From contig SUUX01000004.1 in NCBI GenBank assembly GCA_015062305.1, forward strand, positions 62,001 to 126,000: DNA of 64,000 nucleotides. Direction: 5' to 3'. The notes beneath the pieces were generated by a model. The model saw only the letters and a list, made by a program, of their open reading frames with translations, was not told the origin of the DNA and did not search any database. A program made the translations under genes and the position numbers. This document shows positions 13,652 to 62,874 of the stretch, piece by piece. This DNA is from Alphaproteobacteria bacterium. Lineage in GTDB: Bacteria; Pseudomonadota; Alphaproteobacteria; RF32; CAG-239. The stretch's first letter is position 1. The number at the start of each line of letters is the position of its first letter.

Positions 13652-16000
13652 CTATTTTTTTACATCAAATGGATTATCTTTATTTTCATCTTCCACCAGT
13701 TCAAATGCCATTTCATTCATCCACCAATTATCATAATTTTCAACCGCCTTTATCGTCTCAAACTGACCTCTTTTTTTCCACTTTTCAGAAATGTCATTAA
13801 TCAAAACAGTTTCTATTTTAACATCATCAGATACTTTACTCTTAACCTCATTATACACAACATTCATATACTGGTTTAATTCTATCTCATCATCTATTCC
13901 CAAATCCACATCCATTAAAACCTCTTCCACTCTAGGAATTTTTATATCTTGAACACTTCTCTTATTTACTATTTCAGCATCCAAAAAATAGCTAATCGGC
14001 AAATTGGCTTTTTCTCTAAAAAGCTCATCTTTCATAAACGTCTTATTCTGTGTTAGCACAGGGCAATGATAAAAACCCTCAACCATCAACAATTGATAAC
14101 CTCTGGTCTCCACATTCAAATTTTTCTTTAACTTCAAATCCTGCGCCAACCGATGAAAATAATTTGCATCTGCAACTCTAGATGCAGACACATAGGTTTT
14201 TCTGTCATCTTTAGGTATTTGTACAGACCTTGTTGCAAAAATAGCCATTTTATCCAATTGTTTGCTAAGCTTTTCATTATTATCAGCCATTACAATTTTA
14301 TAGCTTGTATTAGATACTAATTTTTCCAAAGTCTCTCTACCATAAGTATTTTCCATATTATTCAAGCTATTACACAACAACATTACCGAAACATTCTTTG
14401 ATGGAGCTTTAGCTACGCTATCCAACATCCCCCTAACTCTAAGCATTTGACCGGCATCATCAAACACCATCAACATTTGTTTTTGCATATCTTTTTTCTT
14501 TAACACACCATTACGCAAAAGCACTTCTACAAACATTCTATTCATAAACTTTGATGTCTTTGTATTTGCTGCCGCATATATCGTTATCGGATGCCAGCTT
14601 TTTTCGCGTTTATCTTCCACTCCAAGCAAATCTTTCATATAAAAATCGCTACCAGAAGTTCTCTCTCTTATTGTATGGTTAATAAACATTCTCAAAGGTT
14701 TCAAAACATATGCAAAAATCAATTGTCTTTGCAACTTAGATATATACATAAACTGTTGCAACCCTTTAGTAATAAAATTACCATAACCAAACAACCTAAC
14801 TTCAATCAACAATTGCTCAATCCAGGACAACCAATCACCTTGCTCATCTTTAGATGATAAATAATTTTCTAAAAGCCAATCTGTAAACATTCCAAAACAA
14901 ATTTCTTTTCCTTGCCATGAAGCCGGAATGCCTGCCCAACTACCAATCGGAAGATAGTCCTCAGCTGTCAACGTATCATTAGTAATCTTTTCTACCGCAT
15001 CTTTAGAATATTTAGCAGGCATAAGAGCATAATAACTGAGCAAGATGTCCTTATCCTCTTTAGTTAAGCGCCTTTTCTCTAATATTTTACTCAAAAAGTA
15101 ATCATTCGCAACGGCTTGCTCATACTTCACAATCAAAAAACTCATCAAAGAACACATTGTTGCTGATGCCAACCAGTCCCAATAGTTCTCTTTATCTATT
15201 TTCACTTCAGAAGATACCAAATAGGAAGCTAAAAAACTTATGTAATCATCTCTGTTTTTTCCTTTAGGTGGCAAATTGCCTTCTCCCAACGGATTCCATC
15301 TTGGATAAAAAATTTTTTTATCATAATCCTCAGACAAATCCCAATTAAAATAAAAAACGGGTCCCAATGTTGCCCTGTATCCACTTGTATGACGAGCTAA
15401 TGTTCCACTATTATCAACGGCCACCACAGACATATCATCAGACCGTAATATTGAAGGCACTGCAACCGTAGATGTTTTTCCGCTCCCTGTTTCCCCCAAA
15501 CATAACACCGAAGACGGCTGAGGCAATCCCAACAAACTTCCACCAAACCGCCCTAAAACCAGCAAAGAGCCATCTATTAACCCCATTTTGCTAATATCCA
15601 CCATATTTGCAAAACGATGTTTTAACATATACCACAAACCAAAAGAATATGAACTACGCACAAACAACATCAGTAATATGGCAATAAATAATATCGGAGC
15701 CAAAAAAGGCAACAACAAAACAACAGAAAAACTTTTGTTTTCCCACGATGATTGCAAAACACTCCACCACCCTTTGTAATAATCCAAAAAATGAAAAGGA
15801 ACCTTCAGAGCCAAATCAAAATCATGAGGAAACAAATGCTGATCACTATTTATATCACCATAAAACAACAAATGTACTAAAACAAAAAACAACAAAGAAA
15901 GCAGCAAGAAAAGAGTATATGCTCCTATCATCCCTGCAACAAAAAACAACAGGGCTCTACCAAGCCCTTTTTCATCTTCGATTCTAATTGTTCTTTTCAT
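13652..16000 (-). CDS. Type IV coupling protein-like ATPase (DotL/IcmO/TraD family)
   Basis: N-terminal TM helices; Walker A CLGETGSGKTSTVAVPSIL; DNSGTLARHTSGYRATLGPVFYFNWD; Walker B-like MLMVFDDAGQM. Confidence 0.8.
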   Translation of the reverse strand: MKRTIRIEDEKGLGRALLFFVAGMIGAYTLFLLLSLLFFVLVHLLFYGDINSDQHLFPHDFDLALKVPFHFLDYYKGWWSVLQSSWENKSFSVVLLLPFLAPILFIAILLMLFVRSSYSFGLWYMLKHRFANMVDISKMGLIDGSLLVLGRFGGSLLGLPQPSSVLCLGETGSGKTSTVAVPSILRSDDMSVVAVDNSGTLARHTSGYRATLGPVFYFNWDLSEDYDKKIFYPRWNPLGEGNLPPKGKNRDDYISFLASYLVSSEVKIDKENYWDWLASATMCSLMSFLIVKYEQAVANDYFLSKILEKRRLTKEDKDILLSYYALMPAKYSKDAVEKITNDTLTAEDYLPIGSWAGIPASWQGKEICFGMFTDWLLENYLSSKDEQGDWLSWIEQLLIEVRLFGYGNFITKGLQQFMYISKLQRQLIFAYVLKPLRMFINHTIRERTSGSDFYMKDLLGVEDKREKSWHPITIYAAANTKTSKFMNRMFVEVLLRNGVLKKKDMQKQMLMVFDDAGQMLRVRGMLDSVAKAPSKNVSVMLLCNSLNNMENTYGRETLEKLVSNTSYKIVMADNNEKLSKQLDKMAIFATRSVQIPKDDRKTYVSASRVADANYFHRLAQDLKLKKNLNVETRGYQLLMVEGFYHCPVLTQNKTFMKDELFREKANLPISYFLDAEIVNKRSVQDIKIPRVEEVLMDVDLGIDDEIELNQYMNVVYNEVKSKVSDDVKIETVLINDISEKWKKRGQFETIKAVENYDNWWMNEMAFELVEDENKDNPFDVKK

Positions 16001-16002
16001 TT

Positions 16003-17139
16003 CTAACGTCCGTCCCGCCCTCGAGTAACAACTCTATCACGAACATCTTTTGTCGCATTTTCTTTTTCTCTTACAGATTCATTCTGTATTTCTTTCTTTT
16101 TTGCAGCCCGTGCTTCCAATTCCTTACGTTTTCTCTCTTCAATCACCTTACGCAACTCTTCATTGTGAGTTTTAACATCTAGTTCATGATCAGATTTTAT
16201 ATTTTTCAATACTTCCTCATCTTTAACATCTGGCTTGCCTGCACCATGTCTAAAAACTTTTTTGCCGGCATTCAACAATGCTTCGATACTAATTCCTTTG
16301 TCATGAACCACATCCCACACACCAAATTCTTTGCCATCACCCAAAAACAGAGAATTCATATCTATACCATCAAAACCTTTTTTACCCTTTTTCTTTGGAG
16401 CCAAAATTTTTGCCAACTCATCTTTTGATGGCGGTCTACCCAACGCTTGAGCAATTTGTTGCGGAGTAATAATACACTCACTCAAATCAAGCTCCATAAT
16501 ATTTACTCCAGTAAAATCACAACCAGTAAAATCAACTCCTCTTAAATTAACCTTAGACAAATCTATCCTTTGCAAATTCAACAAAGTTAAATTCATTTTG
16601 CTCAAATTAAGCTTATGAGGATAATATTTTGCCAAATACTCTATAAGTTCCTGAAGTTCCTCAATCCCAAGAGCATCAATTTCAATATCCAACAAAATAG
16701 CATTCTCTAAATCTGCCTCAAAAAACTTCACACCATTTAACTTTGCCCCTGTAAAGTTAGTTCCGTGCAAAACAGATCCATTCAAAATTGCTCCGCTTAA
16801 ATCTGCTCCGGACAGATTCGCATTCGTCAAATTTGCTCCTGAAAAATCAACTCCTCTCAAATCAGCTTCAGAAAAATCAACACCGGTTAAATTAGCTACG
16901 GAAAAATTAGCATTAGTCAATATTTCCTTAGCAAATTTTCCGTTTTCTAGGTTTTTACCAACAAAATCTATGCCATTCAAAAAATTACTACGCCCAACAT
17001 CTTCGCCATCCAACTGAGAAACCGCTCGCCATGAAGTCTCCGTTTTTTCTCTGGCTCGCAATTGCTCATACTGTCGTTGGCTCTCCTCAATCTTAGAGCG
17101 TATAATATCAATTTTTTTATCTTGAGTGTCTTTAGCCAT
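16003..17139 (-). CDS. Pentapeptide-repeat protein with coiled-coil ends
   Basis: NFSVANLTGVDFSEADLRGVDFSGANLTNANLSGADLSGAILNG; second block NLTLLNLQRIDLSKVNLRGVDFTGCDFTGVNI; start chosen at MAKDTQDK. Confidence 0.88.
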   Translation of the reverse strand: MAKDTQDKKIDIIRSKIEESQRQYEQLRAREKTETSWRAVSQLDGEDVGRSNFLNGIDFVGKNLENGKFAKEILTNANFSVANLTGVDFSEADLRGVDFSGANLTNANLSGADLSGAILNGSVLHGTNFTGAKLNGVKFFEADLENAILLDIEIDALGIEELQELIEYLAKYYPHKLNLSKMNLTLLNLQRIDLSKVNLRGVDFTGCDFTGVNIMELDLSECIITPQQIAQALGRPPSKDELAKILAPKKKGKKGFDGIDMNSLFLGDGKEFGVWDVVHDKGISIEALLNAGKKVFRHGAGKPDVKDEEVLKNIKSDHELDVKTHNEELRKVIEERKRKELEARAAKKKEIQNESVREKENATKDVRDRVVTRGRDGR

Positions 17140-17205
17140 ACAACATTCCGCTAACTGTTTTTTTATATGATATCCTATTTTTTCTATTTTTACAAACAAA
17201 ATATC

Positions 17206-18984
17206 CTATCTAAACAAGCAATCAGCCCCTGCTCTTTTCATATTTTCACAAAGGTTCAGCAACTGAGCCTGTTTCCCAACAACCACCAATCTATACCATG
17301 GTTGACCACCAATACTTACCTCTTCAATCTTTCGATTATAATTTCCTAATTCTGGAAAACGCCTCAATAAGCTTACCCAATCTGCTTCTGCATTAGCCTT
17401 TTCTATATAAGACCCAAGCTGTAAAATCTCAGATCCTCTAGCCTGCAATGGACTTTTCACAATACTCTTATTTTTCACATTTGCAGCAGACACACCTCGC
17501 GCATTCACCACATTTTCTAGCCAATTTGGCTCTTTAGCCCAACCGGCTCCCAGATCCTCCATAACAGGCAATTCTTTCAACTGAGCCTGAGCCCCAGACA
17601 ACATTACCACCAAATCTTGATTAAATGCTTCCCTTAGCTCTGCACTAATGTCATCCAGAGGAGCTTTCATCAACGTAATGGTAAAAGGAGACAATCCTGC
17701 ATTAAAATACAAATCTCTTAATGCAACAGCTCTTTCCGCCTTTATCTGTTCTTGTTTTTTATCCAATTCCGCCATATCTATTTTTGCACGCAAAAAGGCC
17801 AATTTTTCTTCATTACCTCTTCCGGCATTTTTAGCTAACTGATTCAATTTTTTCTGCAAATTCTTTTCTGCTCTTATCGAAGATTCATACTGAGCATCGG
17901 CATACAACACCAACTGATAACTAACCTCAACTTGTGTCAAAACAGCAGCCCCTAACTCATCAAAAGCCTCTTCCAACCTTGTTTCTCGAATAACATCAAC
18001 AGCAGGTGTCTTCTTATATTCAATAACAGCTTTCACCAAATTTCTTGAGATTTTAATTGCCTTATCATACAAACTCTGTTCATACACCTCATTTTCAACC
18101 TTCAATCCATTCACATCCAATCTGGAAACCAATGGATATCTATTGCTGATATCTCTCCTCACCTGAGAATAAGGCAACCTTTTCATTTTTTCTTTTGCTA
18201 AAGCAAACTCTTTACGATTCCTAACCGCAGATTCTTGAAAAACCTCTATACTATATTCATCATCAAAATTTTCCAGCTCATAAAATCTGCGTCCTTCTAT
18301 CTTCAGTTCTTCCGGATCCAATTTGACCAAATTAGCATATTCTGCAACATCTAGTTTCAAATTATTTATTAATTCTTCAATCTTAACCAATAATACGCCC
18401 TGATTTTTTCGATAATCATATTCTGCCTCTGTCAGTTCGGTATTTTTTTTCTCTTTTTTATTAAGATTCTCAACTATTTTTGCCTCTTGCCTATACCATC
18501 TCTCTAACTCTTTTTCTTTTCTAACGGCATACCAAGCATCTTGGTGTGCTTTGATAGCATCCAATGCCAAATGACGTCCGGTACTTTCATAAAAATAGTG
18601 GTTAGCATAGGCCTGATTTCCACTCAAATTAGCTGCAGCATACATAACAGCCGCTTCCAAAACTCTTGCAGCTTGATAAAGTTTGCTTTCATCATCAACA
18701 TTCGCTCTTATGGCCTCATCAATAAACTCATCTGCATTTTGCTTAGAATAATTCTTAAACACTTTTTTGTGCAAACTGTTACCAACCACATCCACATTAT
18801 ACTTCGCGGCTCTTGCCATAGAATCATAAACATCCTGCTTACCTTTCGCTGGCTCCGGATTCGCATCAAAAATCAAATCTTCATGCCTCATTGTTGCATT
18901 TTCCACACCATCTGAAAAAGTACAACCGGCAATACCCAACCCTACAAAAACCAAAGCCATCCTAATAAAATTCAACTTATTCAT
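17206..18984 (-). CDS. TolC-like outer-membrane-efflux-type lipoprotein with C-terminal SPOR domain
   Basis: Lipobox GLGIAGC; long helices with VRNRKEFALAKEKMKRL; C-terminal LQLGSYIEKANAEADW...GGQPWYRLVVVGKQAQLLNLCENMKRAGADCLFR. Confidence 0.72.
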   Translation of the reverse strand: MNKLNFIRMALVFVGLGIAGCTFSDGVENATMRHEDLIFDANPEPAKGKQDVYDSMARAAKYNVDVVGNSLHKKVFKNYSKQNADEFIDEAIRANVDDESKLYQAARVLEAAVMYAAANLSGNQAYANHYFYESTGRHLALDAIKAHQDAWYAVRKEKELERWYRQEAKIVENLNKKEKKNTELTEAEYDYRKNQGVLLVKIEELINNLKLDVAEYANLVKLDPEELKIEGRRFYELENFDDEYSIEVFQESAVRNRKEFALAKEKMKRLPYSQVRRDISNRYPLVSRLDVNGLKVENEVYEQSLYDKAIKISRNLVKAVIEYKKTPAVDVIRETRLEEAFDELGAAVLTQVEVSYQLVLYADAQYESSIRAEKNLQKKLNQLAKNAGRGNEEKLAFLRAKIDMAELDKKQEQIKAERAVALRDLYFNAGLSPFTITLMKAPLDDISAELREAFNQDLVVMLSGAQAQLKELPVMEDLGAGWAKEPNWLENVVNARGVSAANVKNKSIVKSPLQARGSEILQLGSYIEKANAEADWVSLLRRFPELGNYNRKIEEVSIGGQPWYRLVVVGKQAQLLNLCENMKRAGADCLFR

Positions 18985-55789: not shown

Positions 55790-56539
55790 TTACATCAAAG
55801 CATCTTCTTTGCACGCAAGCTTTTCTTCTGCTGCCACCCAAAGAGCAAACAACTTAGCCTGCGCCTCAAATGACAAATGATTCCGGCTGATATAAATCTC
55901 AATTACCTCTCTTGCATTAGGCAAATCAAACAATTTAATCTCAAGCTGTGATGCCAAATACGATGCTTTCTCAACATAAATTCTCACCAGCTTATCTGCC
56001 TTTTCAGCAGCAAACATTTTTTTCTGAAACTCAAGACTTGTGAAAGAATGTTGTTCCAAAAAATAAGGCAAACATTCTTCAGCATTTGCCAAACAGAGAA
56101 CCCTTTCATCTTCGTACAAAGACCACCCTAGTTTCAGATACTCCAACACCACATCTCCGGCTTCAGGCATTGCAAACATCAACTCCTCTCCTTTTTCAGA
56201 AAAAGAATTATACTTGATATACTCCAAAACCAGCGCCTTTGCATTAGGAGCAGAAAATATCTGAGCCTCGCCTTCCTCATCAAAAATCACATTTTTAAAA
56301 TACAAAGGAACAATTTCCATTACATTTGGCAAGGCATACAACAAAGAATCATTCTCATTGCTCAAACAATGATCTTGCTTGACGTATTCCAAAATAATTT
56401 CTGCGGCATTTGGCAAATCAAAAACTCTCTTCTCACAATTCTCGGGCAAAGAGTTTCCCTGCTTAACAAAATTCAACACCAATTCTGCAGCATTAGATTC
56501 ATCAAACATCAACTCTGCATTGAAAGCTTTTTTTCTCAT
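55790..56539 (-). CDS. Tandem helical repeat protein (about 26-30 aa unit)
   Basis: Repeated ...LFDLPNAAEIILEYVKQ..sLs.e.E... units across the whole ORF. Confidence 0.75.
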   Translation of the reverse strand: MRKKAFNAELMFDESNAAELVLNFVKQGNSLPENCEKRVFDLPNAAEIILEYVKQDHCLSNENDSLLYALPNVMEIVPLYFKNVIFDEEGEAQIFSAPNAKALVLEYIKYNSFSEKGEELMFAMPEAGDVVLEYLKLGWSLYEDERVLCLANAEECLPYFLEQHSFTSLEFQKKMFAAEKADKLVRIYVEKASYLASQLEIKLFDLPNAREVIEIYISRNHLSFEAQAKLFALWVAAEEKLACKEDALM

Positions 56540-60197: not shown

Positions 60198-60734
60198 ATG
60201 TGTGATTTAGATCTAATCAAAACCGGCTCTCATGCCGACATTATGGAAAAAATCCAGCAACGCCCTCTCAGCTTCGATGCACAAAAAGAATTGGTCCACA
60301 GAAAAGACTTCGAAGAGATTTCAACCTACATTCAACTTCGCAAGTTTTGGGATGAAGCGGAAGATGCTCTTATTGAGCTTGGCAACCATTATCTCATTAT
60401 GCTTTACATCTCTCTCCACAGCCTGCACGAAAGCGCTGAAAAACTACTGCTTTCAAGAGGAAACGACGAAGAAATCTTGGAATATATCTCTCGTTACCCT
60501 CTATCTACCGGCGCAGAGAAGGCTTTCATTCGTAGAGGCAAACGGGAAGAGATTATCGCTTATGTTTCCATGTATCCCCTTTGCGAAGCAAGTAAGTGCC
60601 TACTCATCGATCGCGGCGACACAGAAGAGATTTTAACTTGCCTAAAAGCTTTTCAGTTCTGTCCCAGTAGCATCTTAAAGCTCATCGCGCGTGGCAACAT
60701 TGAGGAACTTTCGGCTGCAGGAATTTCCAACTAA
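60198..60734 (+). CDS. Tandem 26-aa helical repeat protein
   Basis: Consecutive 26-residue units such as KLLLSRGNDEEILEYISRYPLSTGAE / KAFIRRGKREEIIAYVSMYPLCEASK. Confidence 0.75.
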   Translation: MCDLDLIKTGSHADIMEKIQQRPLSFDAQKELVHRKDFEEISTYIQLRKFWDEAEDALIELGNHYLIMLYISLHSLHESAEKLLLSRGNDEEILEYISRYPLSTGAEKAFIRRGKREEIIAYVSMYPLCEASKCLLIDRGDTEEILTCLKAFQFCPSSILKLIARGNIEELSAAGISN

Positions 60735-60840: not shown

Positions 60841-62748
60841 TTAAAACAACTTCAACACACCTTGAGAGGCTTGTGAGGCCAGCGATAGGGCATTAATCGC
60901 CAATTGTTGACGAGTTTGCAAAGCCAGCATATTGGCAGATTCTTCATTCATATCCGCCAGAGTGAGCTTATCGGCACCCTCGGTGAGGATGTTTATTAGG
61001 TTTTCGGTAAAATCTTGTCTGTTCATCACAATACTATAATTATTGCCAAGTTCTCCGGAAAATGCTCGCAATTGACCAATTGCCGAAGTCAGTTCTCCTA
61101 TCGAACGAGAAACATCCTCAGCCGTTGTCCATTCTGTTGTAGTTAGCCCGATATTTGCGGCAGAAATGTCTTTGCCAACCACATCTAAAAAAGAACTTCC
61201 AGTTTCATTAAACTTGATTTTCAGAGTTTCATTTTTGAGCAGGTTTACACCCTTATATTTGGCATCATTTATCAAATCATCATATTGAGCCAAAATCTTT
61301 TGATATTGGCTGATGTTAAAATCTTGAAAAGATGTTCTTTCTGATGTAGATGGAGATAAAATTTCATCCTTTATACTATCCCAATCAACAGAGTTCTGTA
61401 TGCTTTCTTTTGTGCAAACCATCTCATTTGCAAAATTTTCAGCACTTAACACTCTAGATTCGTTTATTCTATTATCACTAAGATAAAAACAATTACTTCC
61501 TGTTGAATCATTAAGGGTTATTTGTGCTCCCTCCATAACATTAATATCAGCGCCATTTTGGTTGACAATAGTTGTATGGGCTAAACTTTCTAAAAACAAA
61601 ACAGCACTATTTTCTATAGATATTTTACTATCATCATTTAAAAATGAATCTATAGAAGAATTTACATTAATCTGAGAATTTTCACCTGCATAAAAATGAG
61701 CTCCTGCGGCGTTTAAAATTCCTATATTAGCTGAAATAATATTTAAATTTGAATTGGATATAGAAGTAGTAGCAAAATGAGTATGCAATCCATATCCTGC
61801 TATTCCATCATCATTCCAAATATTTACTTCCGATCCTTTTTCAATGCCAAAAAAAGCATTTTCATAGGCAACCACAATTCCTCTGGAATGATCACCATCA
61901 CTGTGTATATTTATTTTTGCATTTTCAGTTTTTACATTTGAAGCATTGTATACATGCAGAGCTCTAGCTGTAACGCCATTTGCATAAATATTAATATCTC
62001 CTGTCAAAACAGCTTCGGAGGATTTAAAAATTAAAGCTGCATTGCATTGCACAGAACTCTCATTAACGTTCATGTTTATATTAATATTTTGAATCTTTAT
62101 ACCTTTTTTTTCATGTGCTACAACTAAACCAACATCGTCAGGTATACCTCCGCTTTTTACATTGGCTGAAATATCTAAATGAGAAAGCATACTATTATCT
62201 GCCAAGTACAATGCAGAATCTTCTATATTATATTCGTCCACATCAATATCAAAAGTAATTTTAGCCTTTTCTGTTGTTTTTTCTAGAAAGCCTTTACCGA
62301 CTATTGATTGTCCTTCTTGAAGTTTAATCGATTGATTTGTTGACATTGTTATATCATTTTCTAGAACAATGTACCCTTGTTTACCTGAAGAAATTGCTGT
62401 TAACAGCTCTGTTTCATTTGAAACTCTTGCAATAATTGGTTTTTCTTTTTCTTGTGATTGAGTTGCCACTGCTTTAGCTTGTTCCAAAAAAGAGGTGGCG
62501 GTCTCAATTGCTGTTGTGGCGGCTTTGATGGTCTGAATCCCTTGTCCCATAGAATCAAGCAGGGCATCTAGGTCACTGGCTCTGTTGTTCAAAGAACGTG
62601 CTGTATAAAAAGAAGAGGGATTATCAATGGCAGAATTGACCTTTTTGCCGGTAGATAGACGTTCTTGGGTCAAATCCATCAGGCTATTGGTCTTTTGCAA
62701 GCTCAGCAAATTGCTGCGCATGCTCGCTGTCAAACTAATTTTTGCCAT
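60841..62748 (-). CDS. Flagellin with large predicted beta-helix insertion
   Basis: N-terminal flagellin D0/D1 (ISLTASMRSNLLSLQKTNSLMDLTQERLSTGKKVNSAIDNPSSFYTARSLNNRASDL) and C-terminal D1/D0 (SMVMNRQDF-like NYSIVMNRQDFTENLINILTEGADKLTLADMNEESANMLALQTRQQLAINALSLASQASQGVLKLF). Confidence 0.95.
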   Translation of the reverse strand: MAKISLTASMRSNLLSLQKTNSLMDLTQERLSTGKKVNSAIDNPSSFYTARSLNNRASDLDALLDSMGQGIQTIKAATTAIETATSFLEQAKAVATQSQEKEKPIIARVSNETELLTAISSGKQGYIVLENDITMSTNQSIKLQEGQSIVGKGFLEKTTEKAKITFDIDVDEYNIEDSALYLADNSMLSHLDISANVKSGGIPDDVGLVVAHEKKGIKIQNININMNVNESSVQCNAALIFKSSEAVLTGDINIYANGVTARALHVYNASNVKTENAKINIHSDGDHSRGIVVAYENAFFGIEKGSEVNIWNDDGIAGYGLHTHFATTSISNSNLNIISANIGILNAAGAHFYAGENSQINVNSSIDSFLNDDSKISIENSAVLFLESLAHTTIVNQNGADINVMEGAQITLNDSTGSNCFYLSDNRINESRVLSAENFANEMVCTKESIQNSVDWDSIKDEILSPSTSERTSFQDFNISQYQKILAQYDDLINDAKYKGVNLLKNETLKIKFNETGSSFLDVVGKDISAANIGLTTTEWTTAEDVSRSIGELTSAIGQLRAFSGELGNNYSIVMNRQDFTENLINILTEGADKLTLADMNEESANMLALQTRQQLAINALSLASQASQGVLKLF

Positions 62749-62874
62749 CTATAGCTCCTAAAAATATCTAATTATTTTGTACACTATATGCAATCCAAAG
62801 CAATACCTTTTGAGTCTATGTGGATAAAATTAATGCTCTAAAATCACAAATATCTATCTAGTTAATATAAAAAC

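Follow-up and report, generated by a model that had tools for sequence, protein, structure and literature searches.

Flagellins with inserted domains are already known, and in flagellinolysin the inserted domain is a metallopeptidase (PMC5595980). The flagellin described here is similar in that a whole extra domain lies within the flagellin variable region, but the insert is a predicted beta-helix with neither an HExxH motif nor a visible catalytic site. Among the Alphaproteobacteria, the Caulobacter flagellins FljK, FljL, FljM and FljN (8uxj, 6xl0, 8uxk, 8uxn, 9cef) form a multi-flagellin set to which the core of our protein is matched best in both sequence and structure, although they are about 270 residues long and lack an insert. 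Three described beta-helix systems are also comparable. The Pectate_lyase_5 domain (PF20585), a putative pectate-lyase-like adhesive domain, shares the predicted superfold, whereas in our protein the domain sits inside a flagellin. The binding region of the Lactobacillus reuteri SRRP (5nxk, 5ny0) is a beta-helix adhesin found among the structural matches of our flagellin, but it belongs to a separate surface protein and is only 11-14% identical in sequence. EtpA of enterotoxigenic E. coli is a beta-helical adhesin that acts together with flagella; it is secreted separately and binds flagellar tips (PMC10284417), whereas the beta-helix considered here would be part of the flagellin itself. As for diversity-generating retroelements (DGRs), one survey lists "flagellin" once among the target annotations, without detail (PMC6642488), and a global survey from 2021 leaves flagella unmentioned in its main text (PMC8144416). 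Open-licence papers include, besides that on flagellinolysin, studies of the outer domains of flagellins. Neither a beta-helix flagellin nor a characterised DGR-mutated flagellin was found among them, a scope that makes this weak evidence of absence.

The window, i.e. the whole stretch of 64,000 nucleotides that was analysed (G000:C8:62001-126000), belongs to a genome of 1.47 Mb in 19 contigs with a completeness rating of 100%, whose named relatives are uncultured Alphaproteobacteria MAGs. On its minus strand, an open reading frame at 60841..62748 encodes a flagellin of 635 amino acids. Flagellin_N (residues 11-104, 4.6e-14) and Flagellin_C (residues 552-635, 6.2e-9) were both matched above their curated Pfam cut-offs, in agreement with the flagellin ends recognized in the first-pass annotation, and no Pfam domain was matched between them. 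The N-terminal core (D0/D1, residues 1-100, 62449..62748), with modelled helices at 8-42 and 44-100, is followed by the predicted beta-helix domain (residues 105-430, 61459..62436), whose N-terminal cap spans residues 105 to about 156. The insert had been placed correctly from the start, residue 105 falling at 62436 and residue 430 ending at 61459. The solenoid stops near residue 430, and a poorly conserved linker of mostly lower pLDDT (65-82 by block; residues 431-473, 61330..61458) leads to the C-terminal core, which begins at about residue 474 (residues 474-635 and the stop codon, 60841..61329; modelled helices at 474-498 and 543-634). In the PDB, the best sequence match of the core was to the Caulobacter flagellins (3e-23). 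A ribosome-binding-site-like AGGAGC (62754..62759, minus strand) precedes the ATG. Further upstream on the same strand lies a DnaA-box-like 9-mer, TTATCCACA (62819..62827), which occurs twice in the window against 0.92 occurrences expected by chance. The 9-mer is present 73-78 bases before six of the seven insert-bearing flagellin genes of the genome (the window gene, L009, L010, L012, L013 and L015) and absent upstream of the L011, L014 and L016 flagellins.

The window flagellin was modelled with AlphaFold2 from an alignment of 53 family members. The model has a mean pLDDT of 82.9, and over most of residues 105-430 it is a beta-solenoid of high confidence: in ten-residue blocks, pLDDT was 78-98 and mostly above 90 for residues 111-360, and 71-90 for residues 361-430. 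Nearly all of this region was modelled as strands, with short helices in the cap and long helices flanking both ends. AlphaFold2 can be over-confident on repetitive solenoids; when the same procedure was applied to the insert of a sister flagellin with an Lcl_C-like domain (L160), however, pLDDT was only about 20-40, albeit from a shallower alignment of 20 sequences. Foldseek comparison of the full-length model with the PDB gave modest scores, the best match being exopolygalacturonase 3jur (E 4.2e-4, TM 0.28 over the query) and the only one below 0.001; further matches were Caulobacter flagellins, phage tailspikes, SRRP adhesins and pectate lyase B, and among viral models tailspikes and pectate-lyase-superfamily proteins were recovered. 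Moreover, a profile built from the family alignment matched pectate lyase B (7bbv) over positions 114-319 (E 8e-4), and 7 of the 53 family members matched Pectate_lyase_5 (best 3.5e-6, considering E up to 0.01), for which the window protein itself gave no Pfam match.

The signature from which the beta-helix had first been read, an [I/V]-N-[I/V] motif recurring along the insert, also withstood comparison with shuffled sequences: [IVL]-N-[IVL] occurs seven times in the insert and 2.4 +/- 1.5 times in its shuffled versions (p = 0.009). The spacings are 30, 27, 29, 27, 25 and 42 residues, so that five of six intervals lie between 25 and 30. Hydrophobic alternation was not above chance (27 vs 26.8), and the signal of the insert thus consists of the Asn-centred motif and its spacing. 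The cap-like motif noted at the same time is conserved in relatives at E114, L115, A118, G122, I127, I133, L143, Q147, V150 and G151. Could the solenoid appearance nevertheless be a chance product of an Asn- and Ile-rich sequence, in a protein with an ordinary D2/D3 fold or a disordered insert? Such an explanation would account for the chance-level alternation and for the lack of a Pfam domain in the insert, but it is very improbable given the high-pLDDT model, the agreement of independent methods that all match beta-helices, the conservation of the cap among 55 aligned flagellins and the low confidence obtained for another insert by the same procedure, though from a shallower alignment. The parallel beta-helix reading of the first-pass annotation is supported by structure prediction, Foldseek and profile matches alike, and a capped solenoid of the pectate-lyase superfold at residues 105-430 is a well-supported prediction; its coil is probably right-handed, as in the homologues matched. 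We are highly confident that the protein is a flagellin with a capped beta-helix as its outer domain, in which the beta-helix would replace the D2/D3 outer part.

The resemblance to pectate lyase and polygalacturonase, which are among the best fold matches, raises the question of whether the flagellum carries an enzyme, namely, as flagellinolysin would suggest by analogy, a lyase or hydrolase acting on polysaccharides, and enzymatic flagellins do exist (PMC5595980). A motif scan of the window protein, however, detected no GH28, PL1 or HExxH motif. At a conservation threshold of 55% of sequences, the insert columns retained are for the most part hydrophobic residues, Asn or Gly positions and residues of the cap, and no conserved acidic or basic cluster was present in the insert. 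Charged columns conserved at 50% or more are limited to E114, K123 and an Asp at position 190 (His in the window protein), and two of these three lie in the cap. An enzymatic function is accordingly improbable, and the hydrolysis suggested in the first-pass annotation is disfavoured, as no catalytic motif was seen and the conserved insert positions look structural. Glycan binding and shielding, the other functions suggested there, are still candidates. Pectate lyase or polygalacturonase identity was rejected on the negative motif scan and the missing acidic or basic cluster, and flagellinolysin identity on the missing HExxH. The structural character of the conserved columns, together with the absence of GH28, PL1 and HExxH motifs, points instead to a scaffold, an adhesin or a shield; judged from the sequence, display or adhesion is likelier than catalysis for the beta-helix insert.

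The window flagellin is one of nine in its genome. Seven of these have near-identical ends (nucleotide identity 91-96% in the first 288 nt and 88-94% in the last 465 nt) and differing inserts, while two are shorter and plain, one of them lying near the flagellar hook genes for FlgD and FliK. Alignable beta-helix inserts are present in two, the window flagellin and L015:8644-10602. The insert of L011:9447-11219, which was unmatched by the beta-helix profile, in our judgement looks solenoid-like, by eye and from a weak alignment. In the remaining four, a short solenoid-like part is followed by an Lcl_C-like (C-type-lectin-like) domain, with Pfam matches below the curated cut-off. The two plain flagellins may form the bulk of the filament and perform most of the swimming work, so it is unproven that a filament would display beta-helices in their thousands, as had been expected earlier.

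Other flagellins with the same insert, for which a search had been proposed, do exist: in a family-wide sample of 105 genomes, the insert profile matched 22, distributed over 9 of 16 genera, mostly within flagellin-sized open reading frames. In a sample of 289 genomes across the class, only two genomes were matched, both from the same family. Of the 36 genomes examined from the genus, 34 encode flagellins, and a single genome can have as many as 20 Flagellin_N matches. The records of related uncultured MAGs suggest a gut habitat. A related beta-helix is also encoded as a protein of 329 aa that lacks flagellin ends (L207:1123-2112, in G302), and 323-aa frames resembling it are present in G359, G367 and G375.

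Similarity follows the genome for the ends but not for the inserts. In a set of 48 flagellins from the beta-helix group, identity within genomes was 87% for the ends and 31% for the inserts; between genomes it was 66% and 26%, respectively. The nearest neighbour was conspecific for 32 of 42 ends but for only 11 of 42 inserts. The simplest reading is that the ends are homogenised within genomes, or recently duplicated, and that the inserts are old and divergent. Divergence of this kind would also be expected if the beta-helix had no ligand of its own and merely differed, shielding the core from antibodies, host receptors and flagellum-binding phages. The paralogue inserts of one genome, about 17-30% identical against about 95% for the ends, and the hypervariable domains of the sister flagellins favour such passive variation, but the conserved fold and cap, as well as the lectin-like partner domain of the sisters, also suit binding. 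We consider passive variation alone a possible but rather unlikely explanation; it and binding are not mutually exclusive.

We favour a display or adhesin role, in which the beta-helix would not be an enzyme but a rigid scaffold for display or binding on the flagellum, and we assign the combination of the anatomy with this role a probability of roughly 0.55. The window flagellin belongs to a per-genome repertoire of flagellins in which the D0/D1 core of the filament stays nearly constant and the surface domains diverge rapidly. The likely role is to alter what the flagellum presents to host mucus, host cells, other bacteria or phages, or what it binds on them. Whereas the fold prediction and the constant ends with divergent inserts are computational results, export of the protein, its assembly into filaments, ligand binding and an advantage of variation are inferred. 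Should filaments indeed carry these domains, they would constitute a natural polyvalent and switchable display on flagella, with a bearing on how mucus is colonised, how the immune system recognises flagellin and how phages are resisted. Constant ends combined with exchangeable, family-wide insert types offer a clean system for studying how surface domains change while the assembly core stays uniform.

The beta-helix flagellin gains further interest from the DGR-type sisters in the repertoire. The four Lcl_C-like flagellins of the same genome (L009:9091-11157, L010:6285-8366, L012:7066-9135 and L013:6680-8749) share a hypervariable stretch of DGR type: in the 27 codon columns after WSSSE, 96 pairwise codon differences were nonsynonymous and 3 synonymous, with a concentration at the first two codon positions; in the part of the insert before this stretch, the counts were 157 nonsynonymous to 279 synonymous. 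The 96:3 pattern is what a template with many AAC and AAT codons would be expected to produce. Neither a reverse transcriptase (RT) nor a template repeat (TR) for these four genes was found in the window's own assembly. The window flagellin has no Lcl_C domain or adenine-templated variable region, and the link to DGRs therefore concerns its sisters. Flagellins in which putative beta-helix and Lcl_C-like parts occur together were found in this genome and in its congener G002.

In G002, an apparently complete DGR is arranged around a flagellin, in the order TR-RT-Avd-flagellin on the minus strand of contig C2: the TR (L186:8973-8855), an RT (L186:8836-7433; RVT_1 3e-16), an Avd (L186:7509-7159; bAvd 1.5e-16) and the flagellin target (L186:6879-4519). 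The matches of this flagellin to Flagellin_N and Flagellin_C exceed the cut-off, and those to Lcl_C and Pectate_lyase_5 fall short of it. The RT contains IGNLTSQ, which fits the IGxxxSQ motif of DGR reverse transcriptases. Of 119 sites compared between TR and variable region, 15 differ, and at 13 of these the TR has an adenine (P = 2e-5). TR, RT, Avd, Lcl_C-like target and adenine-specific differences all resemble DGRs with DUF1566/C-type-lectin targets (PMC6642488, PMC8144416), except that the G002 target is a flagellin. We consider it reasonably probable that the family possesses a modular, retroelement-diversified flagellar display, built from a constant core and a beta-helix scaffold, to which some members, the sister flagellins, would add C-type-lectin-like heads that a DGR would hypermutate; the window gene would be a beta-helix-only member.

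The congeners G003 and G013 have about a dozen flagellins (L192-L205) whose variable stretches are Lcl_C-like and of the same type; RVT_1 had no match in G003. Asn-rich template repeats typical of DGRs (WSSSENNNNN...) occur in G040, G043, G014 and G051 (L188:6104-6205, L189:5147-5248, L190 and L191), and in G014 and G051 the targets near them are short Lcl_C-type proteins, not flagellins. The G040 and G043 repeats were considered as templates for the variable regions of the present genome and of G003 and rejected, given many non-adenine differences as well; by sequence they are relatives of the same type. Open frames of about 830-1900 aa with several Lcl_C-like stretches each are present in G041, G009, G049 and G006 (L173, L177, L178 and L179).

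Finally, several neighbours in the window were recorded. Two repeat-like proteins without a convincing Pfam match lie near the flagellin (55790-56539, minus strand; 60198-60734, plus strand) and by their look are made up of short repeats, each about 30-35 residues long. At 13652-18984 on the minus strand, a type IV secretion coupling protein (T4SS-DNA_transf, 3.7e-18) adjoins a pentapeptide-repeat protein as well as a protein that resembles a lipoprotein and matches SPOR weakly.
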